Part shown: positions 1-15,426 of the stretch, one piece after another
How the letters are laid out: every line of letters begins with the position of its first letter
Numbering within the stretch: the first letter of the stretch is position 1
NCBI GenBank assembly: GCA_023487965.1
Contig: JAMDBV010000008.1
Coordinates: 1 to 16,375, forward strand
DNA length: 16,375 nucleotides
Source of the DNA: Patescibacteria group bacterium
GTDB lineage: Bacteria > Patescibacteriota > Minisyncoccia > Phycocordibacterales > PALSA-1337
Direction: 5' to 3'
Position numbers and translations under genes: made by a program
The notes under the pieces: model-generated
What the model was told of the DNA's origin: nothing
Database searches by the model: none
The model's input: only the letters and a program-made list of their open reading frames with translations

Positions 1-1
1 C

Positions 2-1057: not shown

Positions 1058-1082
1058 TCTCAATTGATTAGATCTATTTTTG

Positions 1083-1121
1083 ATAGAGCACGGTTTCGCG
1101 CTCGTGTCTCTATTGATTTTT
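1083..1121 (+). terminator. Probable rho-independent terminator after rpoD
   Basis: A 10-bp stem pairs ATAGAGCACG (1083-1092) with CGTG-T-CTCTAT (1103-1113), with one bulged T and a 10-base loop. Four bases later there is a run of five T (1117-1121). It lies 25 bases after the rpoD stop codon and before the next ATG, as expected for an intrinsic terminator. The T run is short and slightly offset, so the strength is uncertain. Confidence 0.5.
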
Positions 1122-1146
1122 CGAGTGTTAGTGAGAAAATCGAAAC

Positions 1147-1704
1147 ATGTCCAATGACCAGTCAATAAATACCCATGACCGAAATACAGAACTCATTGAT
1201 AAAATAAAGAGGATTGTATCTTGGCTATATGTCCAAATTGAACTGTCTCAAGCCTATTATCAATTAAATAGCGAGAAACACGGCTTGCCACAGGTAAGAA
1301 TGGGAGATATATACCATGCTCGTTTGGGTACAAACATTGGCTCAGAAATAGACAAGAACAGACCTGTTATGATATTTCAGGGGTGTGATCCATATATCGA
1401 TGAATCAAACATGGTGACACTTATTCCAATCTCTTCAAATCTAAAAGAGAGACCATACAGGATTTCATTTTCAGAAAACGATATCATCGACAACAAAGGC
1501 ATATCTGGCGGATCGATTGTGATTCAACAAATAAGGTCAGTTTCCAAGATCAGATTGACAGAATACAATGGGAGACTAAGCGATCAAAAAATCCGAGATG
1601 TTATAACACAAGTAAATAGCCTCCTCTATAAAGCACTTCCCCCTGCTTTGCGACAGGGGGGACATGCGACCAATGTCGGTCGCGAGATGCACTGTGTGCA
1701 ATAG
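1147..1704 (+). CDS. MazF/PemK-like protein, orphan toxin candidate
   Basis: The protein has 185 residues. Residues about 52-160 resemble the MazF/PemK (CcdB-fold) endoribonuclease family: MGDIYHARLGTNIGSE, then the conserved Arg-Pro in NRPVMIFQ (R72-P73), then QIRSVSKIRL, which matches the family's Q-R-(S/T)-x-x-K-x-R-L block. Family members are usually toxins that cut mRNA. The catalytic threonine of characterised MazF proteins seems to be replaced by serine (about S96, IPISSN), so activity may be altered. There is an extra N-terminal segment of about 50 residues, and the last 20 or so residues come from reading through a cluster of hairpins (1637-1700). No antitoxin gene is adjacent: rpoD lies upstream, and the helicase starts 11 bases after the stop. 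The gene is richer in A+T and uses AGA/AGG for most arginines, unlike rpoD, which suggests horizontal acquisition. The family call is fairly secure; toxicity is inference. Confidence 0.75.
   Translation: MSNDQSINTHDRNTELIDKIKRIVSWLYVQIELSQAYYQLNSEKHGLPQVRMGDIYHARLGTNIGSEIDKNRPVMIFQGCDPYIDESNMVTLIPISSNLKERPYRISFSENDIIDNKGISGGSIVIQQIRSVSKIRLTEYNGRLSDQKIRDVITQVNSLLYKALPPALRQGGHATNVGREMHCVQ
1637..1700 (+). repeat. Cluster of three consecutive hairpins at the 3' end of the MazF-like gene
   Basis: Three inverted repeats follow one another. The first pairs TTCCCCCTG (1637-1645) with CAGGGGGGA (1654-1662), a 9-bp stem with one T·G pair and an 8-base loop. The second pairs GCGACC (1666-1671) with GGTCGC (1678-1683). 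The third pairs TGCAC (1688-1692) with GTGCA (1696-1700). All three are inside the open reading frame, which stops at 1704, so they are translated if the frame is used. The block resembles REP/palindromic repeat elements more than a simple terminator, because no T run follows. It could still fold in the message and insulate the downstream helicase. Confidence 0.6.
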
Positions 1705-1715
1705 AATTATATGAT

Positions 1716-4688
1716 ATGAAAAGACAAAGTCAAGACACCACAAATACTTTTCGGACTTCATATGATTCATTGAATGACGCCCAAAGGTGCGCCGTTGATA
1801 CTATCGAGGGTCCGGTTGTCGTTATTGCCGGTCCGGGCACGGGCAAGACGACCGTGCTTACTTTGCGCATCGCAAACATTTTACAGAAGACTGATACACC
1901 ACCGGACGCCATCTTGGCTCTGACGTTTACAGAATCAGGCGCGCACAATATGCGGCGCAAGTTGACCGAGATTATCGGTGCCGCCGCCTATCGCGTAAAC
2001 ATTCATACATTCCACGGTTTCGCCGCCAGAATCATCGAGAAATATCCGGATTATTTTCCTAGAATTATCGGCTCCACGATCATAAATGAGATAGATCAGA
2101 CGCGTATCGTAGAGCAAGCTTTGAAATCCAAGAAGATAAAACTTCTTAGGCCGTACGGAGATCGCGGTTATTATGTGCGGCCGATCCTGAAAGAAATACA
2201 GAATCTCAAACGTGAGAATATATCACCCGAAGAGTTTGCGGACAGTATTGTATCGCCCGGCGCGATAGATGATGCCGCCAACCGCTCGATCAAAGCGTCT
2301 CACGAGAAACAGACAAAGCAATACGAAAAAAACACGGAATTGGCGATGGTCTACGCATATTATGAACGGGCCATGGCCGAAGGCAGATTTTATGATTTCG
2401 ACGACATGTTGCTCGAAATCATTCGAGCCATGCGCGGGTATGATGACTTCAAACTGATGCTGCAGGAAGAATATCAGTATATTTTGGCCGATGAGCATCA
2501 GGACGCCAACGCCGCGCAGAATCGCATTCTCGAATTGTTATCTGATTTCCACGAATCACCAAATCTTTTTATTGTCGGCGATGATAAACAAGCCATATAT
2601 CGTTTCCAAGGCGCATCGCTTGACAACTTTATGTATTTCAAGGATAAATACAAAACCGCAACCGTCATAGACTTGGAGCATAATTACCGCTCGCATCAGG
2701 GCATACTCGACGCCTCGCACAGTATAATTGTAAACAATCCGACCATTCCTGGTCACGATGCGAAGCCGTTACGCTCATTGCAGATAGGATCTATGCCCAT
2801 ATCCATAGATGTATGTGAAGATCGCGATACGGAAATCGGCCATATAGCCGACAGTATCGCCGATGAAATCGCAAATGGTAAAGATCCGCAAGGGATCGCT
2901 GTACTGTATCGCGACAATAAGCATGCTGAGCCCATATCCAGGGCATTCAAGGATCGAGGTGTCGAATACCATATCGAATCGGATCACGATATTCTCGGTG
3001 AAAGTGACATTGTCGGACTTGTAACACTGTTGCGATCCATAAACAATCCGTCTACCGATGATGAATTGGCTTTGGCGATGTTTTTGCCTGTATTCGGTAA
3101 CGATCCGGGTGAAGTCGCCGAGGCATCCAAACGGGCGAGACGAGAAGGTGCGCCCATATACAAAGTATTAAAAAACTTTCCGAAACTCCGTGATTCGTAT
3201 GCACGGATAAGCAAGTGGAATACTGAAGCTCAGACGATGCCTTTCCTGCAATTTCTGCACAAGATCATAGAGGAAGCGGAAATAATAAAAATGATCATTG
3301 AAGGTGATATGTCGGCGGAACGCCTCCACGATATGAGAACTTTCATCGATTATGCCGAAGGACTTTCGAAAACGCGGCATACTTATTATCTGCGCAATTT
3401 CATCGAGCATATCGATATCGCAGGTGAACATGGCATATCGACTAAACGCGCCTCACATGACAATCGTGGTGTCAGGATGATGACCGCACACAGGGCCAAA
3501 GGTCTAGAATTTGACAGTGTGTATATCGTACACGCCAATGATGGCATCTGGGGTAATCGCAGTGGACGCAATTATTTCCACATACCATCGATCGAACACA
3601 TGCGCAATGTGGGACGTATCGAAGACGAACGCCGGCTGTTCTATGTCGCGATGACAAGAGCCCGCGAGCGGGTGTGTATAAGTTATGCGCTCGGTGACGG
3701 AGAGAGCGATATGGTACCGAGCCAATTCATCGAAGAAATCAGACGCGATCTCATCGAGGTAAAGCAGATACGCCGTGACACGGAATCATTGATCTCGATA
3801 TATCTCGGCGGTGAAGACGAAGAGTTTCGTGACGATACGTCCGTTTTGGATCGGGAATTCGTCAGAACGGCTTTCCTCGCACAACCTCTATCTGTGACGC
3901 ATATCAACAATTACATATCATGTCCTTGGAAATACTTTTTCACAAATCTGATACGTATTCCCGAAGCCAAAGATAAACACCAGATGTACGGCACGGCGAT
4001 CCACGCAACACTCAAGACATTTTTTGACACTTATCGTGATGGCAGAGAAATGACAAAAAAGCAATTGTTGGATGTGTTGCGCCACAATATGTCGCTGGAA
4101 GCGTTTGCCCACGATGAGCTTGCCGAGACGATAGAGAAGGGTCGTCGTGCCCTGGGCGGGTATTATGACGCGTACAAAGGGTCTTGGACGCGCAACTTTG
4201 TCACGGAGTATGCGATACGGGGCATTGCCATGGAAATACCTGACGCGAACGGCGATTCTGATCGGACATTATTGCAACTCACCGGCAAACTCGATCGCAT
4301 GGTATTCCTGGACGAAACGAATATCTCGGTCATCGATTACAAGACCGGAAAGCCAAAGTCCAAGAATGAAATAATGGGTAAGACCAAGAATTCCGACGGT
4401 AACTATTGGAGGCAATTGGTATTTTACAAATATATCCTCTCACTCGATCGCCCGGAGTCGTATATGCAAAACGGCGAAATTGACTTTATCGAGCCCAATG
4501 AATCGGGTAAATACAAGAATGAGATATTCGAGATAAAAGAGGGCGATGTTGAGGCGTTAAAAAAGCAGATCGTCGCTATGGCTTCGGAGATTCTCGGCAT
4601 GAAATTCATCGGCAAGAGGTTGTGCGAGGGGAAATGCAAATATTGCGCGATGGGCGAATCATTGGCGATAGGAAAAAGAAGAAAGTAG
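1716..4688 (+). CDS. UvrD/PcrA-type superfamily 1 helicase fused to a RecB/AddB-like nuclease
   Basis: This 990-residue protein probably processes DNA ends for recombination and repair. The helicase part has a Q motif (Q23), Walker A GPGTGKTT (39-46), Walker B DEHQD (259-263, where DEFQD is commoner), motif III VGDDKQAIYRFQGA (D289-D290), motif IV NYRSH, motif V MTAHRAKGLEF (589-599) and motif VI YVAMTRARER (M646 onward). The C-terminal third is a PD-(D/E)xK nuclease of the RecB/AddB type: GTAIHA (H763), LDR (D860) and VIDYKTGK (D874, K876). Four cysteines, C736 (SCPWKYF) and C970/C974/C977 (CEGKCKYC), flank the nuclease as in the iron-sulfur nucleases of AddB and AdnAB-type enzymes. The start is 19 residues before the Q motif; no ribosome binding site is visible. 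A TAGAAT at 1702-1707 could be a weak -10. It may be co-transcribed with the MazF-like gene. Domain calls are secure; pairing with another subunit is unknown. Confidence 0.93.
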   Translation: MKRQSQDTTNTFRTSYDSLNDAQRCAVDTIEGPVVVIAGPGTGKTTVLTLRIANILQKTDTPPDAILALTFTESGAHNMRRKLTEIIGAAAYRVNIHTFHGFAARIIEKYPDYFPRIIGSTIINEIDQTRIVEQALKSKKIKLLRPYGDRGYYVRPILKEIQNLKRENISPEEFADSIVSPGAIDDAANRSIKASHEKQTKQYEKNTELAMVYAYYERAMAEGRFYDFDDMLLEIIRAMRGYDDFKLMLQEEYQYILADEHQDANAAQNRILELLSDFHESPNLFIVGDDKQAIYRFQGASLDNFMYFKDKYKTATVIDLEHNYRSHQGILDASHSIIVNNPTIPGHDAKPLRSLQIGSMPISIDVCEDRDTEIGHIADSIADEIANGKDPQGIAVLYRDNKHAEPISRAFKDRGVEYHIESDHDILGESDIVGLVTLLRSINNPSTDDELALAMFLPVFGNDPGEVAEASKRARREGAPIYKVLKNFPKLRDSYARISKWNTEAQTMPFLQFLHKIIEEAEIIKMIIEGDMSAERLHDMRTFIDYAEGLSKTRHTYYLRNFIEHIDIAGEHGISTKRASHDNRGVRMMTAHRAKGLEFDSVYIVHANDGIWGNRSGRNYFHIPSIEHMRNVGRIEDERRLFYVAMTRARERVCISYALGDGESDMVPSQFIEEIRRDLIEVKQIRRDTESLISIYLGGEDEEFRDDTSVLDREFVRTAFLAQPLSVTHINNYISCPWKYFFTNLIRIPEAKDKHQMYGTAIHATLKTFFDTYRDGREMTKKQLLDVLRHNMSLEAFAHDELAETIEKGRRALGGYYDAYKGSWTRNFVTEYAIRGIAMEIPDANGDSDRTLLQLTGKLDRMVFLDETNISVIDYKTGKPKSKNEIMGKTKNSDGNYWRQLVFYKYILSLDRPESYMQNGEIDFIEPNESGKYKNEIFEIKEGDVEALKKQIVAMASEILGMKFIGKRLCEGKCKYCAMGESLAIGKRRK

Positions 4689-4747
4689 TCAAATGTCAAT
4701 TTGTCTGTGTTGATCCGGTTCGACCCGTCCAAGGATCGTTAATGTCG

Positions 4748-4776
4748 TTGACTTCTTCTCAATATCTTGGTAACCT
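4748..4776 (+). promoter_or_regulatory. Promoter of rpsB
   Basis: The -35 box is TTGACT (4748-4753), followed by a 17-base spacer and TAACCT (4771-4776), preceded by TGG to give an extended -10. The ATG of rpsB is at 4785, only eight bases after the -10, so the transcript would be leaderless or nearly so. The -10 is a partial match; the spacing and -35 are good. Confidence 0.55.
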
Positions 4777-4784
4777 TGTGAAAT

Positions 4785-5468
4785 ATGAAAAATGAAGCAA
4801 AAACAGCCATAGATGCGATGTTTTCCGCCGGATCGCATTTTGGCCTTGGCCGATCGAGGCGCCATCCTACGGTTGCCAAATACATTTTTGGCACCAAAAA
4901 TCGCACCGATATATTCGATCTCGAGAAGACCGATGAATTGCTCGGCAAGGCCAAGGAATTCATGAATAAGCTTGGTAAAGAAGGCAAGACGGTTCTGATC
5001 GTCGGTGGCAAGAAAGAAGCATGTCAGGCGGTCAAGACAACAGCCCAGAATCTAAACATGCCTTACGTCGACGGACGTTGGATCGGTGGCAGTCTGACCA
5101 ATTTTGGGAATATCAGGAAGCGCATTGAACGCTATGAAAGTCTGGTTAGTGACAAAGAGAAGGGTGAATTGGCCAAGTACACCAAGCGCGAACGCATGTT
5201 GCTCGACAAGGAGATTGCCAAACTCGAAAAAATGTTTCTCGGCATTGTACCGATGAAGAAATTGCCGGACGCTCTGGTTGTTATCGACCCGAAATACGAA
5301 GATATCGCTATTCGAGAGGCGGACAATATCGGTATTCCTGTCGTCGCTCTTGCCAATTCCGACTGCGATATATCCAAGGTCAAATATCCGATTGTCGGCA
5401 ACGATGCTACGAAATCGAGCATTTCCTATTTCCTTGGTGAGCTTGCAAACGCTTTCTCGGCCAAATAG
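4785..5468 (+). CDS. rpsB: 30S ribosomal protein S2
   Basis: S2 binds late to the 30S subunit near the head-body junction and helps recruit S1. The 227-residue length is typical. Diagnostic blocks are the N-terminal GSHFGLGRSRRHPTVAKYIFG, the central PYVDGRWIGGSLTNFGNI (normally xRWLGGxLTNxxTI), the coiled region with KEIAKLEKMFLGI, LPDALVVIDPKYEDIAIREA, and the end block IPVVALANSDCDISKVKYPIVGNDA. The usual 'HE'-type N-terminal motif reads HFG here. The ATG at 4785 fits the family N-terminus. There is no Shine-Dalgarno sequence, and a promoter ends eight bases upstream. rpsB-tsf is the usual bacterial order, but here 175 bases and a second promoter separate them. Confidence 0.98.
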   Translation: MKNEAKTAIDAMFSAGSHFGLGRSRRHPTVAKYIFGTKNRTDIFDLEKTDELLGKAKEFMNKLGKEGKTVLIVGGKKEACQAVKTTAQNLNMPYVDGRWIGGSLTNFGNIRKRIERYESLVSDKEKGELAKYTKRERMLLDKEIAKLEKMFLGIVPMKKLPDALVVIDPKYEDIAIREADNIGIPVVALANSDCDISKVKYPIVGNDATKSSISYFLGELANAFSAK

Positions 5469-5485
5469 GCAGGATTGACCGTTTT

Positions 5486-5494
5486 TGATACAAT
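5486..5494 (+). promoter_or_regulatory. Extended -10 promoter upstream of tsf
   Basis: TGATACAAT at 5486-5494 is an extended -10 (TGn plus TACAAT), the same nonamer found upstream of the DoxX-like gene and the receiver gene in this window. No -35 is visible at the correct distance; a TTGACC at 5475 is too close. The predicted start of transcription is near 5501. Confidence 0.5.
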
Positions 5495-5643
5495 ATCTAT
5501 GCATGATAAGCCCATTCGTTTTGTTGCGAATAAAAAGAGCAAACGGCAAATATCCGGTTCAATCGGAGTTGCCACTCCTCAAGGGGCTCGAAGGCGATCA
5601 GACAATTAAAAACAAAATATCCAATAACCAAAAACAATCAAAT
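5495..5643 (+). other. Leader/spacer between rpsB and tsf
   Basis: This stretch follows the extended -10. It has two small overlapping stems: TCCG/CGGA (5553-5567) and GGAGT/ACTCC (5565-5578). They share bases, so they exclude each other. An A-rich tail runs up to the tsf ATG. It also holds a 36-codon reading frame (5499-5609), and the tsf frame stays open back to 5485, so an N-terminally extended EF-Ts from ATG 5503 is possible but looks unlike the family. The length makes it a candidate regulatory leader; nothing in it matches a known riboswitch that I recognise. Confidence 0.35.
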
Positions 5644-6231
5644 ATGATTACAACAGAACAGATCAAAGAGCTCCGCGACCAGACCGGCGTATCGGTCATG
5701 CAATGCAAAAAAGCGCTCGAAGAAGCCGGTGGCAGTATGGAAAAGGCGCTGGTACTTTTGCGCAAGAAGAGCGGTGAAATATCCGCCAAAAAGGGTGATC
5801 GCAAGTTCGGCTCCGGAACCATTCAGGCATACATACATGCCAATGGCAGTGTCGGTGCCATGGTTGAAGTCAATTGCGAAACCGACTTCGTCGCCAACAA
5901 TGAGGAGTTCAAGACAATGGCGCGAGAAATCGCCATGCACGTGGCTGCTTCCAATCCAAAGTTTTTGTCCAAGAATGATATAACCGAGGAAGACAAAAAG
6001 ACCGCCGCCGCGGCTTTTGAGGCGGAAGTCAAGGGCAAACCGGAGGCGATGAAGGCCAAAATCCTGGAAGGCAAACTCAATGCGTATTTTGCCGACATGG
6101 TATTGCTCGATCAGCCGTTTATCAAGAACCCGGATATGAAGATACAGGCGTTGGTGGACGGAGCTGTTCAGAAATTTGGGGAGAAGATCGCGGTTGCGCG
6201 CTTTACGCGCTTCAAGGTTTTGGGTAATTAA
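5644..6231 (+). CDS. tsf: Elongation factor Ts
   Basis: EF-Ts exchanges GDP for GTP on EF-Tu in the cytoplasm. The 195-residue form from ATG 5644 begins MITTEQIKELRDQTGVSVM, which is the family N-terminus (UBA-like domain, with CKKALEEAGG and the AxxxLR-type helix). The core has GSVGAMVEVNCETDFVANN, including the TDFV motif that contacts EF-Tu's nucleotide-binding domain, then FKTMAREIAMHVAASNP and the LLDQPFIKNPDMKI block, and it ends with an ARFTRFKVLGN tail. It is much shorter than the E. coli protein (283 residues), because one half of the duplicated core/coiled-coil region is missing, as in many short bacterial EF-Ts. The open frame upstream to 5485 is not used as the start, since family homology begins at 5644. 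The next gene starts one base after the stop. Confidence 0.96.
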   Translation: MITTEQIKELRDQTGVSVMQCKKALEEAGGSMEKALVLLRKKSGEISAKKGDRKFGSGTIQAYIHANGSVGAMVEVNCETDFVANNEEFKTMAREIAMHVAASNPKFLSKNDITEEDKKTAAAAFEAEVKGKPEAMKAKILEGKLNAYFADMVLLDQPFIKNPDMKIQALVDGAVQKFGEKIAVARFTRFKVLGN

Positions 6232-6232
6232 A

Positions 6233-6607
6233 ATGTATACCTATATATCCATATTTTACGCTTCGATCCTGTCAATGGCATTGATGCTTTATCTCAAGGC
6301 ATTGGAAGTCAAAACAGGTCGCGTGTCGATTGTCTCTAGGATGGGTCGCGGTACGGATCATATATTTACGGCAATACACGCGAAAATACAAAGGATGATC
6401 TCATACATCAACCGCAAGACTTTTGTCGCTCTCCTTCAATGGATCGCGTATCATGTCCTGTTGCGTATCCGCAAGGTATATGTTGAGTTGAAGCACAGGG
6501 CATTGCAAAATCCGCATGGTAAAAGGTTGATAGATGCGGTTCGGGGCCGCGCAGACATAAGAAGGCATGGTGCCTCGTTTTATCTGCGCAGGATAAGTGA
6601 GAATTGA
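6233..6607 (+). CDS. Small membrane-anchored hypothetical protein
   Basis: The protein has 124 residues from ATG 6233, one base after the tsf stop, so it is probably translated by coupling to tsf. The frame is open upstream to 6176, but that would overlap tsf and has no support. Residues about 3-20 (ISIFYASILSMALMLYL) form one hydrophobic segment. The remainder is strongly basic, with many Arg, Lys and His, and is predicted to be helical, so it would sit on the cytoplasmic side if the positive-inside rule holds. I do not recognise a family. The arrangement of one N-terminal membrane helix plus a basic tail next to translation genes could suit a ribosome or RNA tether, but that is only speculation. 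Confidence 0.7.
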   Translation: MYTYISIFYASILSMALMLYLKALEVKTGRVSIVSRMGRGTDHIFTAIHAKIQRMISYINRKTFVALLQWIAYHVLLRIRKVYVELKHRALQNPHGKRLIDAVRGRADIRRHGASFYLRRISEN

Positions 6608-6667
6608 TCTATTACTTATCATTGTCTCATCGCTTCCCACATCACGCCTTTTCTGTTACAGTATCCT

Positions 6668-6676
6668 TGCTACCAT
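6668..6676 (+). promoter_or_regulatory. Possible extended -10 for the tRNA gene
   Basis: TGCTACCAT at 6668-6676 fits the TGnTAnnAT pattern and lies 23 bases before the tRNA 5' end. The match to TATAAT is four of six and no -35 is evident. Between it and the tRNA is a tandem pair of CCAGTAA (6679-6692). Confidence 0.3.
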
Positions 6677-6699
6677 TACCAGTAACCAGTAACTAGTTC

Positions 6700-6775
6700 G
6701 CCACCTTAGCTCAGTTGGTAGAGCAACGCTTTTGTAAAGCGAAGGTCCCCAGTTCAAGCCTGGGAGGTGGCTCCA
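6700..6775 (+). tRNA. tRNA-Thr (anticodon UGU)
   Basis: A full cloverleaf of 76 bases can be drawn. The acceptor pairs GCCACCT with AGGTGGC, then discriminator T and an encoded CCA. The D arm is GCTC/GAGC with an AGTTGGTA loop. The anticodon loop is TTTGTAA with anticodon TGT, reading ACA (Thr). The T arm is CCCAG/CTGGG with loop TTCAAGC. The outermost anticodon-stem pair (27-43) is an A·A mismatch; the other four pairs are intact. CCA is encoded in the gene. Confidence 0.97.
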
Positions 6776-6818
6776 AATATTGACGTCCTCATTCCGGACT
6801 TACGTGTCGATATTTCTC

Positions 6819-6827
6819 TGGTATAAT
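6819..6827 (+). promoter_or_regulatory. Extended -10 promoter of the 6857 gene
   Basis: TGGTATAAT at 6819-6827 is a perfect extended -10 (TGn plus TATAAT). No convincing -35 is present at 16-18 bases. The predicted transcript starts near 6834, within an inverted repeat ATTAGT/ACTAAT (6834-6848) just before the ATG at 6857. Confidence 0.65.
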
Positions 6828-6856
6828 AAGGACATTAGTATAACTAATACAGTTTT

Positions 6857-7294
6857 ATGAATTCAAACAACAGAGGTGGGGCAGTATTGTGGATAGTCGT
6901 AGTTGTCGCCGTTATTGTCGCGGCAATGTACTTTACGAAAGGATTTACGTTCAACAGTAAGCCGAACCCAAATGAAATAACCGATCAGTTGCGCGTCTTC
7001 CTGTCGGACCGATACGACAATTGTACCAATGCAAGTGTGACTGATCTGGAAAATATAAATGTCGGCCCATATAACAAAGATACATATGGCGGTTTTCCGG
7101 TATATGCCACATACAAAGTCACATGCGCTTCGGGCAATTCCAATTCCAGTACATCGCCGACTGTGGCAGTGGCTGTCGCAAAAAGAGATATATTCGGTCG
7201 ACACTTGCTTTTTGTGCCAAAATTCGTCAATGACATCCAAAATCAGGTCAACGACATGGCGGCGCAATATTGGAAAGATCATCCGATAAAATAG
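6857..7294 (+). CDS. Hypothetical exported, membrane-anchored protein
   Basis: The protein has 145 residues and no family that I recognise. The N-terminus is short and polar with one Arg (MNSNNRGG), followed by a hydrophobic stretch at about 9-24 (AVLWIVVVVAVIVAAM). This is typical of a signal anchor with no clear cleavage site. The rest is a soluble domain with alternating beta-like and helical segments and two cysteines, C56 and C90, which could form a disulfide outside the membrane. A Gly/Ser/Asn/Thr-rich turn (SGNSNSSTSP) follows C90. It has its own extended -10 promoter and a terminator hairpin after it, so it is probably transcribed alone. A pilin-like role is possible but the N-terminus lacks a prepilin cleavage motif. 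Confidence 0.8.
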   Translation: MNSNNRGGAVLWIVVVVAVIVAAMYFTKGFTFNSKPNPNEITDQLRVFLSDRYDNCTNASVTDLENINVGPYNKDTYGGFPVYATYKVTCASGNSNSSTSPTVAVAVAKRDIFGRHLLFVPKFVNDIQNQVNDMAAQYWKDHPIK

Positions 7295-7323
7295 CAATTT
7301 CCAGAATTGATTCGCGTTGTGGT

Positions 7324-7350
7324 AAAACAGTGCAAACACCGCGCTGTTTT
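7324..7350 (+). terminator. Terminator-like hairpin overlapping the pheS promoter
   Basis: AAAACAGTGC (7324-7333) pairs with GCGCTGTTTT (7341-7350), a 10-bp stem with one T·G pair and a seven-base loop. The 3' arm ends in four T, so it can end transcription of the 6857 gene, and the A-rich 5' arm makes it potentially bidirectional. Its last base is also the T of the pheS extended -10, so the hairpin or a protein bound to this inverted repeat could also affect pheS. Confidence 0.6.
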
Positions 7351-7358
7351 GCTATATT
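7350..7358 (+). promoter_or_regulatory. Extended -10 promoter of pheS
   Basis: TGCTATATT at 7350-7358 is an extended -10. The pheS ATG (7365) follows after six bases, which is where transcription would start, so a leaderless message is predicted. The -35 region is occupied by a hairpin arm and has no good TTGACA match. Confidence 0.5.
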
Positions 7359-7364
7359 TATGCA

Positions 7365-8189
7365 ATGAATGATGAAGAAAAAAAAGGACATCTGCATCCG
7401 ATAACTTCGGTTATACGCGAAATCGCGATGATATTCGATAAGATCGGCTTTTCTGTCGCTCAAGGACCGGAATTAGAAAATGAATTTTATAACTTCGACG
7501 CCCTCAATGTTCCACCGGATCATCCGGCTAGAGATATGCAAGACACATTTTGGGTCAAGCGTGCAAAGGATAACGTTGTTCGGGGAGACCTGGATCCTCG
7601 CCTGCGCCCCACTTCGCTTCGCTACGAGGGGCTTGCGAGGATGACACAACGAAAAAGTATTGATAATCAGAGATTGGTTTTGCGCACGCACACCTCTTCG
7701 GTACAAGTCCGGTTCATGGAGTCTATCAAGGACGATCCGAAACCGTTCAAGATAATCGTACCGGGCAAAGTGTACCGCAATGAGGCGACGGACGTGACTC
7801 ATGAGGCGCAGTTTTACCAGATCGAGGGTTTGTATATCAACGACAAAGTGTCGATCGCGGAACTCAAGTGGACACTCGAATATTTTTTCAAGGAATTTCT
7901 CGGTCCCGAAGCCAAGATCCGATTTCGTCCATCGTATTTCGGTTTCGTCGAACCGGGTGTCGAAGTCATTGTCTGGTGGCAAGATAAGAAGGGTAATGGC
8001 AAATGGTTGGAATTATTCGGAGCCGGTTTGGTACATCCGCATGTGATCCGTTCGTCGGGTCTGGATCCGGACAAGTGGCAGGGCTTTGCATTTGGCGGAG
8101 GTATCGACCGACTTGTAATGCTTCGATACGGCATCGACGATATCAGACATTTGTATTCGGGAGATTTGCGATTGATCAGTCAATTTTAG
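7365..8189 (+). CDS. pheS: Phenylalanine-tRNA ligase alpha subunit, N-terminally short, with an in-frame palindromic insert
   Basis: PheS carries the class II catalytic site that charges tRNA-Phe. The 274-residue protein starts almost at the catalytic core (HLHPITSVIREIAMIF), so the N-terminal coiled coil of about 85-90 residues that grips tRNA in E. coli PheS is absent. Core blocks are FYNFDALNVPPDHPARDMQDTFW, LRTHTSSVQVRFM, motif 2 YRNEATDVTHEAQFYQIEG (R138) and motif 3 FAFGGGIDRLVMLRYGI (R249). Between DTFW and LRTHTS, where the family usually has a short linker, about 20-25 extra residues (D77 to about Q95) are encoded by a palindromic element at 7594-7642. The frame stays open and the flanks are intact, so the protein should be functional. 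A toxin-like gene starts six bases after the stop and pheT follows it. The ATG at 7365 is predicted to be at or near the transcription start. Confidence 0.96.
   Translation: MNDEEKKGHLHPITSVIREIAMIFDKIGFSVAQGPELENEFYNFDALNVPPDHPARDMQDTFWVKRAKDNVVRGDLDPRLRPTSLRYEGLARMTQRKSIDNQRLVLRTHTSSVQVRFMESIKDDPKPFKIIVPGKVYRNEATDVTHEAQFYQIEGLYINDKVSIAELKWTLEYFFKEFLGPEAKIRFRPSYFGFVEPGVEVIVWWQDKKGNGKWLELFGAGLVHPHVIRSSGLDPDKWQGFAFGGGIDRLVMLRYGIDDIRHLYSGDLRLISQF
7594..7642 (+). repeat. Palindromic element inserted in frame within pheS
   Basis: Outer arms ATCCTCGC (7594-7601) and GCGAGGAT (7635-7642) are a perfect 8-bp inverted repeat. Inner arms GCCCC (7606-7610) and GGGGC (7628-7632) add five pairs. The apex has near-repeats CTTCG, CTTCG, CTACG. 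It encodes residues about 77-93 of PheS (DPRLRPTSL and following), in a place where the family has only a short linker. The TGGATCCTCGC...GCGAGGATGACA layout resembles protein-coding palindromic repeats such as the Rickettsia palindromic elements; that comparison is from memory and untested. Confidence 0.7.
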
Positions 8190-8195
8190 AACGTT

Positions 8196-8651
8196 ATGAC
8201 AAGCATCACCATTACAAAAAATAAAAGATTCCCCGAATGGATTGTCCTAAAAGAGAAACTCGATTTATCGATTCACGAATCCCCGCTATTCAACGAGGGT
8301 GAGGTATGGTGGTGTAGTATCGGTGAGAACGTAGGAAGAGAAATAAGCGGGAAAAGCCAGTTATTTTCAAGACCGGTTTTGGTGTTTAGAAAATTGTCCC
8401 GGCAAATGTTTCTAGGAATCCCCACAACTTCACAAATCAGAACTGGGTCGTGGTATGTTCCCGTTCAGTATAACGACAAGCAATATACGGTAGTATTGGC
8501 GCAGATGCGTGTATTCGATACAAAAAGGATGTCAAATAAGATCGGCAAAATTGACTCCGTTAATCTGAATAGGGTTAGAAGTGGGTTTGAGAGTCTGTTC
8601 TTACCAAAAATAATTCCCCCTTTCGGGGGCCGTGGCGAATGCCAAAAGTAA
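8196..8651 (+). CDS. MazF/PemK-like protein between pheS and pheT
   Basis: The protein has 151 residues. From about residue 34 it follows the MazF/PemK growth-inhibitor family: GEVWWCSIGENVGREISG, the Arg-Pro in SRPVLVF (R59-P60), IPTTSQ (T78 at the place of the catalytic threonine) and VVLAQMRVFDTKRM. Both residues associated with RNA cleavage in characterised MazF proteins are thus present. Many CPR genomes encode such proteins annotated as type II toxins. Here no antitoxin is seen on either side: pheS ends six bases upstream and pheT starts 45 bases downstream. It is richer in A+T and AGA/AGG codons than pheS and pheT, which points to insertion into the pheST operon. The last residues (IIPPFGGRGECQK) are encoded by a CCCCC/GGGGG hairpin. 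Being in the pheS transcript, it would be co-expressed with PheS. Toxic activity is inferred only. Confidence 0.8.
   Translation: MTSITITKNKRFPEWIVLKEKLDLSIHESPLFNEGEVWWCSIGENVGREISGKSQLFSRPVLVFRKLSRQMFLGIPTTSQIRTGSWYVPVQYNDKQYTVVLAQMRVFDTKRMSNKIGKIDSVNLNRVRSGFESLFLPKIIPPFGGRGECQK
8616..8629 (+). repeat. CCCCC/GGGGG hairpin at the 3' end of the second MazF-like gene
   Basis: CCCCC (8616-8620) pairs with GGGGG (8625-8629) around TTTC. It is inside the last codons of the gene. The surrounding TTCCCCCT...GGGGG layout echoes the first hairpin at 1637-1662 in the other MazF-like gene. Read on the minus strand it is followed by a T-rich run, so it could end antisense transcription. Confidence 0.5.
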
Positions 8652-8656
8652 CACTA

Positions 8657-8671
8657 TTGTATATTATACAA
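8657..8671. promoter_or_regulatory. 15-base perfect palindrome upstream of pheT
   Basis: TTGTATA (8657-8663), one central T, then TATACAA (8665-8671) form a perfect inverted repeat in an A+T-rich spacer of 45 bases. It overlaps a TATATT (8660-8665) that could be a -10 giving a 25-base leader before the pheT ATG at 8697; TTTAAT at 8688-8693 is another -10-like box but too close to the ATG. It could be an operator for a dimeric regulator or a pheT promoter element. Confidence 0.4.
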
Positions 8672-8696
8672 ATATATTGTCAAGCGATTTAATAAG

Positions 8697-10661
8697 ATGA
8701 AAACATCCTATAAATGGTTACAGAGTTATTTTGATGCGAAATTGCCGGAGCCGGAAGCGCTTTCGGAATTGATCGGCAATCATGCGTTTGAAGTAGAATC
8801 GGTCGAAAAGGTCGGTGACGATACCGTATTTGATATCAAAGTATTGCCGGATCGTGCGCATTACGCCCTATGTCACAGGGGAATAGCCAGAGAGATTCGT
8901 GCAATTACGGGATTGGTCATGAAGGACGAGAAAAGTTCGAGTATCAAAATAACCGATCCGACAACGGTGAATGTCAGTATAGATGATTATCGATTGTGCA
9001 GGCGTTACGTCGCGAGACGTATTTCCGGCGTACAAATAGGCGAAGCGCCACGATGGTTGAAAGAGAGACTAGAAGCGATCGGATCGCGCTCGATAAATAA
9101 TATTGTCGATGCTACCAATTATGTGATGTTTGATATCGGCCAGCCACTGCACGCATTCGACGCGGATAGAACATCTCAAAACATTTACGTTCGTTTAGCC
9201 GGAAATGGCGAAGAGATGGAACTTCTGCCCGAGACTGTCATGGTCGACGGCAAGGCGACTGAGAAAGAGAGGAAAATCACCCTAGACCAGAGCAATTTGG
9301 TAATAGCCGACGATGGTGGCGCGATAGCGTTGGCGGGTGTCAAGGGGGGTCGTAAAGCCGAGATCAATTCCGGGACGAAAAATATAATCATAGAATCAGC
9401 CAATTTTGATCCGGTTTCTATTCGTCGGACTTCGACGCGCATGGGCATACGCAACGATTCGTCAAAGAGGTTCGAGAACGAGATAATTCCGGAGCTTGCC
9501 GGTGAAGCCATGGACAGGATAACACAGCTTATCGTCGATATGTGTCCTGATGCCAAGATCAGTAATATTACCGATCAAAAATACAAAGAGACAAGGACAA
9601 GAAACATTTCGGTGCACCTTGCGTTTATAAACGAGAGGATCGGAGAAAATATAGACAGAAACACGGCGCGTGATCTGCTCGAAAGGGTCGGTTGCGACAT
9701 CGTTGAGCGAGATCATGAATTTTTGGTTACGCCTCCGATCGACCGTCTGGATATGAATATTCCGGAAGACGTTGTCGACGAGGTCGCGCGTCTTTATGGC
9801 TACGATATCATATCCGGTATGGAACCGGCGGCGCTTCGGCAAAAGACACCGGTCGACAAAACCTTTTATCTTTCCGAAAAGTTCAAAAATATCTTGAATT
9901 CGCTCGGTTACAACGAAACACTTCTGTATTCTTTGGTACCGAAAGGATCCTTTGTCATCGAATACCCTTTGGCGAGTGATAAGTCGGCGTTGAGAGAAAG
10001 TATTATTCCGGAAATGTCGGGAATACTCGTCACGAATGCCCGGAACGCGGAATTGCTGGGTCTGGACATGATAAAAATATTTGAAATCGGTAAAGTGTTT
10101 CCATCGACCGGCGAAAAGACTTCACTCGCTATAGGTATTACGATAGTCAAAAAGCGCAAAGGTATAAATGCCGAGAGTGAAGTGAAGATTATCATCGATA
10201 GATTATCGAAGGACTTTCCCATAGGAGCCGGTGATATCACATACAAAAAGGTCGATCCAATGACGATGCTGGCTGAAATCGATTTTGACAATGTGGTGAA
10301 CAAAATACATGAGGTCGGCGCTGTTTCAGATCTAGATTTTGCCGTTCTGCCGGAAGACAAGCGCTACGTACCTTTTTCTCAATACCCGTTTATCGGCCGA
10401 GACGTTGCCGTATTTGTTCCCGAGAATGTGACTGCAGAAAATGTCTGGCAGGTGATAGAGAGCGGGTTGAAAAAATCAAATACCTTGTCGCTCGTCGCAA
10501 AGCACGCACTATTCGATATCTTCAAGAAAGATGCAATGACTTCATACGCATTTCGCATCATATTCCAGGCCAGTGATAGGACTTTGACTGACGATGAGGT
10601 CAACCGTGCGACGGAGGCTATATATTCAGCCCTAAAAGAGAAGAATTGGCAGATACGATAG
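8697..10661 (+). CDS. pheT: Phenylalanine-tRNA ligase beta subunit lacking the EMAP-like tRNA-binding domain
   Basis: PheT pairs with PheS in a heterotetramer and carries editing and tRNA-binding parts. The protein has 654 residues, compared with about 795 in E. coli. The N-terminal B1 part (MKTSYKWLQSYFDAKLPEP) runs directly into FDIKVLPDRAHYALCHRGIAREI, so the EMAP/OB-fold tRNA-binding domain normally inserted there (about 110 residues) is missing. The B3/B4 editing region is present (RRYVARRISGV, INNIVDATNYVMFDIGQPLHAFD, IALAGVKGG). B5 is at about 303-375, ending RLYGYDIISGM. The catalytic-like B6/B7 region follows (FKNILNSLGYNETLLYSLV). The C-terminal FDX-ACB anticodon-binding domain is complete (SQYPFIGRDVAVFV to the end). 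No Shine-Dalgarno sequence is visible. A MazF-like gene separates it from pheS. Confidence 0.96.
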   Translation: MKTSYKWLQSYFDAKLPEPEALSELIGNHAFEVESVEKVGDDTVFDIKVLPDRAHYALCHRGIAREIRAITGLVMKDEKSSSIKITDPTTVNVSIDDYRLCRRYVARRISGVQIGEAPRWLKERLEAIGSRSINNIVDATNYVMFDIGQPLHAFDADRTSQNIYVRLAGNGEEMELLPETVMVDGKATEKERKITLDQSNLVIADDGGAIALAGVKGGRKAEINSGTKNIIIESANFDPVSIRRTSTRMGIRNDSSKRFENEIIPELAGEAMDRITQLIVDMCPDAKISNITDQKYKETRTRNISVHLAFINERIGENIDRNTARDLLERVGCDIVERDHEFLVTPPIDRLDMNIPEDVVDEVARLYGYDIISGMEPAALRQKTPVDKTFYLSEKFKNILNSLGYNETLLYSLVPKGSFVIEYPLASDKSALRESIIPEMSGILVTNARNAELLGLDMIKIFEIGKVFPSTGEKTSLAIGITIVKKRKGINAESEVKIIIDRLSKDFPIGAGDITYKKVDPMTMLAEIDFDNVVNKIHEVGAVSDLDFAVLPEDKRYVPFSQYPFIGRDVAVFVPENVTAENVWQVIESGLKKSNTLSLVAKHALFDIFKKDAMTSYAFRIIFQASDRTLTDDEVNRATEAIYSALKEKNWQIR

Positions 10662-10697
10662 CTGTTTGCAAGGTCGGATCTCGGCATAATATTTGCG

Positions 10698-10726
10698 TTG
10701 AATTACCGGTCGGAATCTGCTATAAT
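10698..10726 (+). promoter_or_regulatory. Promoter of gyrB
   Basis: TTGAAT (10698-10703), a 17-base spacer and a perfect TATAAT (10721-10726) preceded by TGC make this the best full promoter in the window. The transcript would start near 10733, leaving about 33 bases before the gyrB ATG. That leader has no Shine-Dalgarno sequence close to the start. Confidence 0.85.
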
Positions 10727-10750
10727 GTAGTCACAAATATGGCGGGATAA

Positions 10751-12847
<2,097 letters not shown>

Positions 12848-12879
12848 AGCGAATACGTCTGTCTTTGACGAGTGCACGA

Positions 12880-12915
12880 AATACGACATCTGTACCGTCG
12901 GATGTTTTTCGTATT
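12880..12915 (+). terminator. Terminator-like inverted repeat after gyrB
   Basis: AATACG (12880-12885) and CATC (12887-12890) pair with GATG (12901-12904) and CGTATT (12910-12915), with a 10-base loop and a five-T run (12905-12909) on the 3' side. The simpler form is ACATC/GATGT followed by TTTT. It ends two bases before the DoxX extended -10. The stem is imperfect, so termination strength is uncertain. Confidence 0.4.
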
Positions 12916-12916
12916 G

Positions 12917-12925
12917 TGATACAAT
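12917..12925 (+). promoter_or_regulatory. Extended -10 promoter of the DoxX-like gene
   Basis: TGATACAAT at 12917-12925 is an extended -10. No -35 is recognisable at the expected distance. Transcription would begin near 12932, about 22 bases before the ATG at 12954. Confidence 0.6.
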
Positions 12926-12953
12926 ATTGCCATATCAGTCCTAATGCAAAAAT

Positions 12954-13499
12954 ATGGCAAAGAAAAATGAAATAATAATCGAAGAGAATCCTGTCAGTCA
13001 TTTTCTCTTCAACAATACGCGCTCGGCCGCATTCTGGCTCATCGCCCGATTGTATCTCGGTTATGAATGGCTGATCGCCGGCTGGGAAAAGGTAACCAAT
13101 CCGGCTTGGGTTGGCAGTGATGCTGGCTCGGCTATATCCGGATTCTTGAACGGCGCATTGGCAAAGACTGCGGGTGCCCATCCTGATGTTCAAGGTTGGT
13201 ATGCGGCGTTCATAAAGAGCATGGTTTTGCCACACGCGACATTGTGGTCGCATCTTGTCGCGTACGGAGAATTACTGGTCGGTATCGCGCTTATCATCGG
13301 CGCGTTCACCGGTATAGCGGCGTTTTTCGGTCTGTTTATGAACCTGAATTATATGCTGGCCGGTACAGTCAGTACCAATCCGATATTATTTACGATCGCC
13401 ATCGGGATCGTCTTGGCGTGGAAAGTATCAGGATATTGGGGACTGGATAGGTATCTTATTCCGGCGTTAGGTACGCCGTGGCGCGGAAAAACCACATAA
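12954..13499 (+). CDS. DoxX family membrane protein
   Basis: The 181-residue protein resembles the DoxX/DoxD family, small four-helix membrane proteins linked in some organisms to thiosulfate:quinone oxidoreductase or to redox and oxidative-stress complexes. Visible signs are the first hydrophobic segment with RLYLGYEWLIAGWEKV (residues about 31-46, the family's R-x-x-L-G-x-x-W-x-x-x-G-x-x-K block), a soluble loop at about 50-90, then three further hydrophobic segments: YGELLVGIALIIGAFTGI (about 102-120), AFFGLFMNLNYMLAG (about 122-137) and ILFTIAIGIVLAWKVSGYWGLDRYL. The ATG at 12954 has no Shine-Dalgarno sequence. Thioredoxin lies downstream with its own promoter. The family call is good, but no substrate can be given. 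Confidence 0.85.
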   Translation: MAKKNEIIIEENPVSHFLFNNTRSAAFWLIARLYLGYEWLIAGWEKVTNPAWVGSDAGSAISGFLNGALAKTAGAHPDVQGWYAAFIKSMVLPHATLWSHLVAYGELLVGIALIIGAFTGIAAFFGLFMNLNYMLAGTVSTNPILFTIAIGIVLAWKVSGYWGLDRYLIPALGTPWRGKTT

Positions 13500-13512
13500 A
13501 TACCTGTCAACA

Positions 13513-13541
13513 TTGACCGGAATCACGCAAGGATATATATT
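13513..13541 (+). promoter_or_regulatory. Promoter of trxA
   Basis: TTGACC (13513-13518), exactly 17 bases, then TATATT (13536-13541). Each box matches the consensus at five of six positions. This is the one clear promoter here that has no TGn extension. The transcript would start near 13548, about 30 bases before the ATG. Confidence 0.7.
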
Positions 13542-13577
13542 TATATTCCTCATTACCAGCTATAAACAAAAAATAAT

Positions 13578-13907
13578 ATGTCAAAAGTAATAAATTCAGG
13601 TCAAAGTGACTTCGATCAGGTCGTTATCAAATCGGATCTACCGGTCTTGGTGGATTTTTGGGCACCGTGGTGTGGACCGTGCCGGGCGATGGCGCCGGTA
13701 TTGGACGAATTGTCAGACGAAATGGCCGATAAACTCAAAGTTGTCAAAGTGGATGTTGACAATGCTGAAAATCAAGAACTTGGCGCGAAATACGAGATAA
13801 GGAGCATACCGAATATGAAACTTTTCAAGAATGGGGAAGTTATTCATGAATTGGTTGGAATGATGCCGCTCGGCGCGCTCAAGGCGGAGATCGAGGGCAA
13901 AATATAG
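13578..13907 (+). CDS. trxA: Thioredoxin
   Basis: The 109-residue protein has the normal thioredoxin length. It reduces disulfides in cytoplasmic proteins. The active site is WCGPC with C32 and C35, matching E. coli numbering exactly. Around it are the family blocks DFDQVVIKSDLPVLVDFWAPW, VVKVDVDNAENQELGAKYEI and the cis-proline loop RSIPNMKLFKNGEV. There is no signal peptide. It follows the DoxX-like gene with a separate promoter; the pair suggests linked redox work but no direct link can be shown. The reductase is not in this window. Confidence 0.97.
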   Translation: MSKVINSGQSDFDQVVIKSDLPVLVDFWAPWCGPCRAMAPVLDELSDEMADKLKVVKVDVDNAENQELGAKYEIRSIPNMKLFKNGEVIHELVGMMPLGALKAEIEGKI

Positions 13908-13938
13908 GACATTATTCACAGTGTACGAATGAGAGCTG

Positions 13939-13947
13939 TGATACAAT
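13939..13947 (+). promoter_or_regulatory. Extended -10 promoter of the receiver-pilT operon
   Basis: TGATACAAT at 13939-13947 is identical to the nonamer upstream of the DoxX-like gene and tsf. The receiver ATG (13954) follows after six bases, so the transcript would begin at about the start codon. CACAG/CTGTG arms (13917-13921 and 13936-13940) surround it upstream; the right arm overlaps the TG. Confidence 0.6.
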
Positions 13948-13953
13948 TTAGGC

Positions 13954-14352
13954 ATGGATCAGAATAAAACCAAAAAAGTTCTATTCGTTGATGATGACAA
14001 ATTTCTTTTGGACATGTATTCGGTCAAGTTCACCAAGGCCGGATACGAAGTCAAAGCGGCAGACTCCACAGAACTGGCTCTCAAAATATTGCGGGACGGA
14101 TATGTCCCGGACATCATTCTGGCCGATATAGTCATGCCGGGTTCCGACGGTCTGCAATTCGTAAACAGTGTTCGCAAAGAGAAACTGGCGGCGGACGCGG
14201 CATTTATCATGCTGACCAATCAGGGCGAAACGGCCGATATCGAGCAGGCACGCAAGCTCGGTGTTTCGAGTTATATAGTTAAAGCCACAACTGTACCTTC
14301 CGATGTCCTGGGCGAGGTCGAAAAAGTCTTATCAAACCATAAAACATCATAA
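13954..14352 (+). CDS. Stand-alone CheY-like response regulator receiver
   Basis: The 132-residue protein is a single receiver domain with no output domain. Acidic residues D13-D15 (VDDDK) coordinate the metal, D58 in LADIVMPGSDG is the phospho-acceptor, T88 (MLTNQGE) and K110 (IVKATT) complete the switch. The residue after the lysine is Ala instead of the usual Pro. It lies three bases upstream of pilT and should be translated with it, so it probably signals to the type IV pilus motors, as PilG/PilH-type receivers do. No histidine kinase is in the window. A leaderless start is predicted from the promoter spacing. Confidence 0.92.
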   Translation: MDQNKTKKVLFVDDDKFLLDMYSVKFTKAGYEVKAADSTELALKILRDGYVPDIILADIVMPGSDGLQFVNSVRKEKLAADAAFIMLTNQGETADIEQARKLGVSSYIVKATTVPSDVLGEVEKVLSNHKTS

Positions 14353-14355
14353 TAC

Positions 14356-15414
14356 ATGGATTACAAAAAAGAGATCGAAGAGCTTGTCAATCTGATTTTA
14401 AAAGAGAATGCATCGGATCTTCATTTGGCTACAGGCCGAACGCCTATTATCCGTGTTTCCGGTAATCTGATACCCCTGGTAAAAAAGCCGGTAATAACGG
14501 AGAAGGACATGCAGGGTTATATTAACGCTCTTCTCACCGAGGCCAATAAGACGATTCTGGAAAATGACAAGGACGTCGATTTCTCCTATAGTCTGGCGCA
14601 TGCGCGTTTTCGAGGCAATGCCTATTATCGACAAGGTGCTCTCTCTATCGCTTTGCGTCTTATCCCAAAATCAATACGCACACTTTCCGAACTCAACCTG
14701 CCGCCGATTCTCGAGACATTTACCAGAAAGCCGCAAGGATTTTTCTTGGTCGTGGGCCCGATAGGACAAGGCAAAACCACTACATTGGCGTCGCTCATCG
14801 AGATTATCAATCAGACACGCACGGAGCATATTTTGACCATTGAAGACCCTATCGAATATCTTTTCGAATCAAAGAAATCAATCATCGATCAGCGGGAAGT
14901 AAGATTGGATACGCCGGATTTCAAAGACGCTCTTACCGCCATGTTCCGTGAAGACATAGACGTATGTATGGTGGGTGAAATGAGAGATGTCGAAACAGTG
15001 AGTACGGCGGTAACCGCCGCCGAGACAGGCCACCTGATCTTCTCGACATTACATACAAACAATGCCAGTCAGACGATCAACCGTATTATCGATTCATTCA
15101 TGTCTACACAGCAAGATCAGATCCGCATACAACTCGCGGGATCATTGACCGGCATATTCTCGCAGAGACTCATACCGAGAATTTCCGGCGGACTTATTCC
15201 CGCCTATGAATTGCTCATAAACAACAATGCGGTTTCAAATCTGATACGTGAAAGACGTGTGCATGAGATCCAGACGGTTATCGAAACGAGTTCTCAGGAG
15301 GGTATGATAGACATGAATCGGTCATTGGCAGAATTGGTACGGGCGGGAGAGATTACGGTGGAAAGCGCTTATATGAATTCTTCCAATCCGAAAACATTGG
15401 AACGTCTGCTATAA
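14356..15414 (+). CDS. pilT: Type IV pilus retraction ATPase PilT
   Basis: PilT is the hexameric motor that depolymerises the pilus, powering twitching and DNA uptake. The 352-residue length is typical. The N-terminal domain has NLILKENASDLHLATGRTPIIRVSG (PAS-like PilT start). The ATPase core has Walker A GPIGQGKTT (134-142, K140; the usual form is GPTGSGKST), the Asp box TIEDPIEYLF, Walker B with FREDIDVCMVGEMRD (PilT usually has REDPDV), and the His box STLHTNNASQTINRIID. The C-terminus has NNAVSNLIRE, close to the PilT signature AIRNLIRE, which separates it from PilB. It sits in an operon after the receiver and before pilC. An extended -10 for pilC overlaps its last codons. No pilB is in the window. 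Confidence 0.95.
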   Translation: MDYKKEIEELVNLILKENASDLHLATGRTPIIRVSGNLIPLVKKPVITEKDMQGYINALLTEANKTILENDKDVDFSYSLAHARFRGNAYYRQGALSIALRLIPKSIRTLSELNLPPILETFTRKPQGFFLVVGPIGQGKTTTLASLIEIINQTRTEHILTIEDPIEYLFESKKSIIDQREVRLDTPDFKDALTAMFREDIDVCMVGEMRDVETVSTAVTAAETGHLIFSTLHTNNASQTINRIIDSFMSTQQDQIRIQLAGSLTGIFSQRLIPRISGGLIPAYELLINNNAVSNLIRERRVHEIQTVIETSSQEGMIDMNRSLAELVRAGEITVESAYMNSSNPKTLERLL

Positions 15415-15415
15415 T
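15407..15415 (+). promoter_or_regulatory. Internal extended -10 promoter before pilC
   Basis: TGCTATAAT at 15407-15415 contains the pilT stop codon. The pilC ATG (15427) is 11 bases further. This could allow pilC to be expressed separately from pilT. No -35 is clear, and the motif is within coding sequence, so chance is possible. Confidence 0.4.
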
Positions 15416-15426
15416 TCACCAAAAAT

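Follow-up and report, generated by a model that had tools for sequence, protein, structure and literature searches.

The phenylalanine--tRNA ligase alpha subunit gene (pheS) of a Patescibacteria group bacterium carries a palindrome within its reading frame, and the question is where this palindrome came from. The gene lies at 7365..8189 on the + strand of a 16,375-nucleotide stretch, referred to here as the window (contig JAMDBV010000008.1 of assembly GCA_023487965.1, positions 1 to 16,375). The original prediction, made from the letters of the window, described a nested inverted repeat with 8-bp outer and 5-bp inner arms that had been inserted, in frame, between the DTFW and LRTHTS blocks of PheS. 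The palindrome is probably a loop-expanded repetitive extragenic palindromic (REP) element of the CGTC-1 type, inserted into pheS of a Candidate Phyla Radiation (CPR) genome, with a small GIY-YIG nuclease as its likely partner. The pheS element belongs to one family of at least 15 elements in its own genome, is in frame, and is missing from relatives. REPs of this family flank a GIY-YIG gene with their tails pointing inward, and the flanking stems match each other in its own genome and in related ones.

The nested repeat is present exactly as described, at 7594-7642. Its outer arms, both exact, are ATCCTCGC at 7594..7601 and GCGAGGAT at 7635..7642 of the + strand, and inner arms GCCCC (7606..7610, +) and GGGGC (7628..7632, +) form a nested stem in the sequence and its fold. 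Because flanks common to several genomic copies extend the family to GACCTGG...GATGACACAA, the whole element is taken to span 7587..7649 (+), limits that rest on the family consensus, the frame and the length. These 63 nt (DLDPRLRPTSLRYEGLARMTQ) make exactly 21 codons and encode PheS residues 75-95; the proposed residues, about 77-93, were rightly placed and slightly too narrow. Read on the - strand, the element runs TTG-TGTC-ATCCTCGC-(33-nt loop)-GCGAGGAT-CCA-GGTC. An unpaired TGTC head (the CGTC/TGTC tag) occupies 7643..7646 and an unpaired CCA tail 7591..7593, both on the - strand and as defined in the available text of a REP survey (PMC3733652). The tip of the loop, GTAGCGAAGCGAA at 7613..7625 (-), is common to the sole other long-form copy found by pattern comparison, C24:3172-3227 of the same assembly. 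The pheS frame is open across the element. As predicted, it is preserved: the intact 274-aa product matches PF01409 (E 4.6e-91) and scores 303.5 bits against the NCBIfam model TIGR00468 (pheS), above the cut-off of 237.45.

The significance of the palindrome lies in the repetition of its family through the genome and not in the strength of its hairpin. The hairpin taken alone is unremarkable: starts of 8-bp-arm hairpins with loops reaching about 40 nt number 11 in the window, and 20 block shuffles average 10.35. The exact arm pair occurred in 0 of 200 shuffles, a count that refers to a pattern picked post hoc, after it had been seen. The host assembly is a metagenome-assembled genome (MAG) of 506,721 bases in 61 contigs, 74.33% complete, and the search for further copies that the original prediction called for finds them in it. 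The 96 bases around the palindrome give 25 matches at E<=10, self and half-elements counted, and the exact arm sequences GGATCCTCGC and GAGGATGACA occur 13 and 19 times, respectively. At least 15 two-armed related elements are present, a lower bound from the scanning of 21 stretches. The arms are 4 nt apart in 13 of them (some with stem mismatches), and the consensus of this short form is TGTC-ATCCTCGC-GAAG-GCGAGGAT-CCA. The other two, in pheS and on C24, are of the long form. The 63-nt stretch on C24 is 78% identical to the pheS element; the two have the same tip and differ in their inner stems, GCCCC/GGGGC in pheS and, by eye, ATGT/ACAT on C24. Three close inverted pairs, on contigs C34, C39 and C58, have starts 66-82 bp apart and a REPIN-like look. 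A search of viral contigs with a 27-mer found no exact copy. Decaying tandem half-sites, GAGGATGACACAA, recur about every 19-20 bp on the head side of REPs on contigs C18 (L057:55-260) and C43 (L061:1950-2040 and 2440-2480), a pattern that looks as if heads had been added stepwise.

Neighbouring PheS proteins lack the segment, and with further copies in the genome neither of the two conditions by which the original prediction would have been refuted holds. In an alignment of 41 sequences, the stretch from W63 to R107 has 43 residues in the window protein as against 7-37 (median 10) in the 40 others, and the 21-residue insert is present in none of the 40. The longest other stretches (37, 26 and 26 residues) consist of unrelated sequence, and the remaining ones, of 18 residues or fewer, are too short to hold it. 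Four near relatives (L204, L205, L206 and L245, one of them labelled Candidatus Taylorbacteria and the others uncultured bacterium), which are 76, 79, 81 and 77% identical to the window PheS, have 26, 19, 20 and 21 residues from DTFW to LRTHTS compared with 52 in the window. The window probably belongs near the Taylorbacteria, and its PheS neighbours place the genome in the Paceibacteria. Between the two flanking matches lie 15 residues in the solved PheS chain 2akw and 4 in 6p8t. The insert sits in a stretch of naturally variable length; for a surface loop, which the original prediction raised as a question, the support comes from the alignment. The loop pattern was parsed at 23 of 30 loci in one set; in another set, 56 of 80 loci were passed on, of which 38 matched.

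Other genomes fill the same PheS loop with different DNA. The 77-nt loop DNA of G028 (locus L028; the corresponding locus of G329 is L207) has 8 matches in G028 and 8 in G329, the genome's own pheS loop being included in each count, and the loops of both genomes hold an A-rich interspersed repeat that is unrelated to the REP. Elsewhere, repetition of loop DNA amounted to the own pheS loop only in G011, 3 matches in G058 and 0 in G044. A reading of the PheS loop as a hot spot used by many repeat families was dropped, having been borne out in these two genomes only (G028 and G329). For the FDKLRA-like loop of L208, whose 15-mer occurs once in that genome, a repeat was likewise not borne out.

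The family resembles a known class. According to the available text of the 2013 survey, CGTC-1 REPs have a CGTC or TGTC head, an 8-bp stem starting with AT, a 4-5-nt loop and a tail that is mostly CCA, and head-to-head dimers predominate (Di Nocera et al. 2013, PMC3733652). The TGTC head, the AT-first 8-bp stem and the CCA tail are all present in the pheS copy, whose family is dispersed in multiple copies. Because its loop, like that of the C24 copy, is 33 nt instead of 4 nt, it is classed as a variant and not as a plain CGTC-1 member.

A gene physically linked to these repeats suggests what might move them. In the own genome, a 98-aa GIY-YIG gene (C43:2085-2378, minus strand) lies between inverted REPs at C43:2029-2055 and 2412-2438, whose stem, ATCCTCGC, is the same as that of the pheS copy and whose tails point inward. 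Contig C18 begins with a second copy of the start of this gene together with its REP. When 51 genomes were searched with the C43 protein, 15 of the 26 REP-positive ones had a match at E<1e-20, as did 1 of the 25 REP-negative ones; these 25 were hand-chosen, mostly from the genera or families of the positive genomes. In the lone REP-negative genome with a match (G151), the gene is surrounded by REPs of another sequence. An alignment of 18 proteins shows Y9, Y20, R30 and E67 as invariant, and we take them to be the catalytic residues. Neisseria gonorrhoeae has a homologue at 48% identity. A literature search found no paper joining GIY-YIG to REP, dRS3, Ssn or site-specific single-stranded cleavage.

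The linkage extends to the close homologues of the C43 gene, defined as those from the order with at least 80 bits (n=21). When a REP-like hairpin was required within 150 bp, REPs were found on both sides with tails inward in 16 of 21 and on at least one side in 20 of 21; if loops are limited to 6 nt or less, the two-sided CPR cases number 15 instead of 16. Hairpins of this kind lie beside 0 of 21 distant homologues and 0 of 1768 positions drawn at random within the same loci, a comparison in which 20 of the 21 close homologues come from REP-selected genomes and the distant ones from mixed genomes. Two places with strong GIY-YIG matches (G282:C12 and G273:C1) were left out of the flank analysis, three duplicates were dropped, and 15 loci without a tblastn match were left unscored. 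Of 15 CPR pairs (the 16 two-sided loci without L192, which has no short-loop pair), 10 have the same stem on the left as on the right, as do 15 of 21 pairs overall, and 0 of 20,000 shuffles were as similar in either set. From a plasmid collection, homologues were fetched for 16 of the 34 records found. Inverted CGTCG/CGTCA palindromes in Novosphingobium and Sphingobium were missed by the strict rule; the R. tumorigenes and Sphingomonas plasmid homologues have no flanking REPs by eye. On a Planktothrix agardhii plasmid (L285), a close homologue has an MmeI-type restriction gene on one side and drmA (DISARM) on the other; the TGTCATTCTGAG motifs that flank it fall outside the strict REP rule. 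On plasmid p3 of Azospirillum lipoferum (L284), the neighbours of the GIY-YIG gene, which has REP pairs on both sides, are sufB and sufC.

The pheS element is not the only copy within a gene. A short copy at C30:569-595 of the own genome lies in frame inside a SecA-like frame (SecA_DEAD, E 5.4e-61) and is read there as LDPRLREDDT, in the frame that also gives the LDPRLRPTS of the pheS insert's first half. The corresponding stretch has 43 residues in the own protein and 14-57 in relatives (22 of 30 loci parsed, own included). In the secA stretch of G011 (L301), unrelated repeat-like DNA forms a CCCTAAACCCTATA tandem, and that of G003 (L299) contains CTTCGCGGGAATGATAAC, which may be an eroded REP half. 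In related genomes, eight open frames with internal REPs were scanned, and four belong to clear housekeeping families: alanine racemase (alr, L143), TruB (L155), an M50 peptidase (L172) and DNA polymerase I (polA, L150). In these four the REPs fall within Pfam matches or in the gaps between them. The other four are weakly methyltransferase-like (L200), similar to a type IV secretion system coupling protein (L146), below the cut-off (L159) and without a match (L153). TruB and DNA polymerase I are on the published list of proteobacterial genes with intragenic REPs (PMC3733652, available text).

Across the order, the short form (up to 2 mismatches) is found in 25 of 297 genomes, the own one included; with the pattern reversed as a control, every row came to 0. 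The long pattern occurs in 1 of the 297, the own genome, and in 0 of the 296 others. The distribution is patchy: among five genomes of the window's genus, only the own genome (G000) and G003, with one CCCC variant, match the short form; G016 has a TTCCCGC variant in its place.

GTAG REPs are thought to be mobilised by Y1 (IS200/RAYT-type) transposases, and such an enzyme might also have moved the pheS element. Two PF01797 (Y1_Tnp) genes lie on contig C45 (L137) of the own genome, a search of 36 genomes, this one among them, gave matches in 19, and the three inverted pairs look like REPINs. However, no REP-like hairpin was found at the own Y1 loci (L079, L096 and L137), and the frames, one of 113 aa (truncated at the contig start) and one of 144 aa, are short for a RAYT. 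The absence of a REP-flanked RAYT is not final, since the genome is incomplete. In the available text of the 2013 survey, CGTC elements seem to be without a dedicated transposase, and CGTC units were found beside none of the RAYT/IS200 genes that it examined (PMC3733652). Mobilisation by a Y1 transposase is unlikely.

Recruitment of the hairpin for a function, whether RNA control of pheS translation or stability or a useful PheS loop, is more doubtful still. With a fold energy of -24.6 kcal/mol (z -2.86; 1 of 200 shuffles as stable), the RNA hairpin is fairly stable, and the host gene is essential, but the hairpin is in none of the 40 aligned relatives, unrelated sequence occupies this stretch in relatives (the A-rich interspersed repeat in G028 and G329), and REPs also occur within the frames of unrelated genes. 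It is very improbable that a REP from elsewhere was joined into pheS during assembly. The MAG is fragmented into 61 contigs, C18 starts inside a GIY-YIG copy, and the secA frame breaks near a contig start; against this, the pheS frame is open on both sides of the insert, the insert is an exact multiple of three, and both flanks align to PheS. The long form on C24 is not the source of a misjoin because it is only 78% identical. A chance palindrome in a fast-evolving, lineage-specific loop, for which it could be said that bare 8-bp-arm hairpins are as frequent in shuffled sequence, is effectively ruled out by the genomic copies, that is, by the C24 stretch and by 15 elements that share arms, head and tail.

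Insertion of a CGTC-1-type REP with a GIY-YIG partner remains the preferred explanation, and a possible mechanism can be outlined. The GIY-YIG nuclease would recognise the hairpin that a REP forms when DNA is single-stranded, and would drive or bias the copying of the REP to new places through repair or strand switching. Insertions would survive when they are in frame in flexible loops, and the pheS copy would therefore be a neutral insertion that the protein tolerates, with no functional role in PheS. Several points weigh against this explanation. The insertion rests on one MAG that is 74.33% complete. The closest relatives compared are 76-81% identical, so the comparison offers no clean empty site, and no target-site duplication is visible at the pheS insert by inspection. 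The pheS copy has a loop of 33 nt as against 4-5 nt in the family definition. The secA copy may sit in a broken gene or beside an assembly fault; it is doubtful because its frame (C30:141-776, L063) has only 212 codons, against 558-1018 in the frames of relatives, and stops at a distance of 140 bases from the contig start. As for the nuclease, 11 of the 26 REP-positive genomes have no strong GIY-YIG match, among the 16 two-sided cases that of L192 depends on a doubtful hairpin with a long loop, and strict REPs flank the plasmid-set homologues on both sides in only 6 of 16 cases (on any side in 8 of 16). The tie between GIY-YIG and REP consists of linkage and stem matching, from which we infer that the nuclease may cut or move the REP.

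A broader picture is possible, and we put it forward tentatively, as something short of probable. Small stand-alone GIY-YIG nucleases may be the dedicated partner of CGTC REPs across phyla, with the gene and its inverted REP pair as a mobile unit. The spread repeat may colonise essential genes in frame and, in tiny CPR genomes, may have repeatedly lengthened the loops of PheS, SecA, alanine racemase, TruB, PolA and an M50 protease. The 2013 survey, in its available text, left the mover of CGTC REPs open (PMC3733652), and the linkage and stem matching name a testable candidate. Coding REPs are extended here to streamlined CPR genomes, in which there is little room between genes and insertions can land in essential ones, and they provide a concrete route for new peptide segments into old proteins.

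The remainder of the window contains a PemK/MazF-like gene between pheS and pheT (8196-8651; PF02452, E 3.9e-10) and a second one at 1147-1704 (PF02452, E 2.7e-16), which adjoins a gene that by eye resembles one for a sigma-70 factor. An Rfam scan of the window found a tRNA at 6700-6772 only.

Three known systems can be compared with the pheS element and its linked gene. In 2025, an Ssn family of GIY-YIG single-strand nucleases was reportedly described as acting on Neisseria repeats, and that description may already cover part of the present linkage. Ssn is likewise a small stand-alone GIY-YIG nuclease tied to a genome-wide repeat, and a GIY-YIG gene is physically linked to the repeat here at C43 and in 16 of 21 close homologues. 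The host phylum differs, and cleavage is at most predicted in the present case. The REPIN/RAYT system of GTAG REPs is similar in its short palindromes, inverted pairs and many copies; here, in contrast, there is no GTAG head, no flanking Y1 transposase was seen, and the flanked gene is GIY-YIG. Within the palindromic elements of Rickettsia (RPE-1 to RPE-6), as in pheS, a palindrome lies in frame inside open reading frames of functional proteins, and the pheS insertion is in frame, leaves the gene intact and is absent from orthologues. RPE-1 is longer (PMC3733652, available text). The comparison with RPEs is one of description and not of sequence. The likeness to Rickettsia and Wolbachia elements drawn in the original prediction holds at the level of element class, the level at which it was compared: the CGTC-1 family takes in dRS3 of Neisseria and RPE-6 of R. 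conorii, RPE-4 of R. conorii is equated with CGTC-4 REPs, and CGTC-4 repeats are listed in Wolbachia (PMC3733652). Its suggestion that such an element would be unusual in an essential synthetase of a CPR-like genome stands in part. In-frame REPs in housekeeping genes, tRNA synthetases included, are already published (PMC3733652), and the CPR host extends them. The terms 'candidate phyl' and 'Parcubacteria' are absent from the available text of that survey by word search, and a literature search found no paper joining REP and the Candidate Phyla Radiation, though papers on palindromic repeats in Patescibacteria may mention such elements. Apart from this host and the 33-nt structured loop, where the family has 4 nt, the pheS element and its relatives share with CGTC-1 REPs the head, stem and tail, the dispersed copies, the inverted pairs and the in-frame intragenic copies in housekeeping genes.
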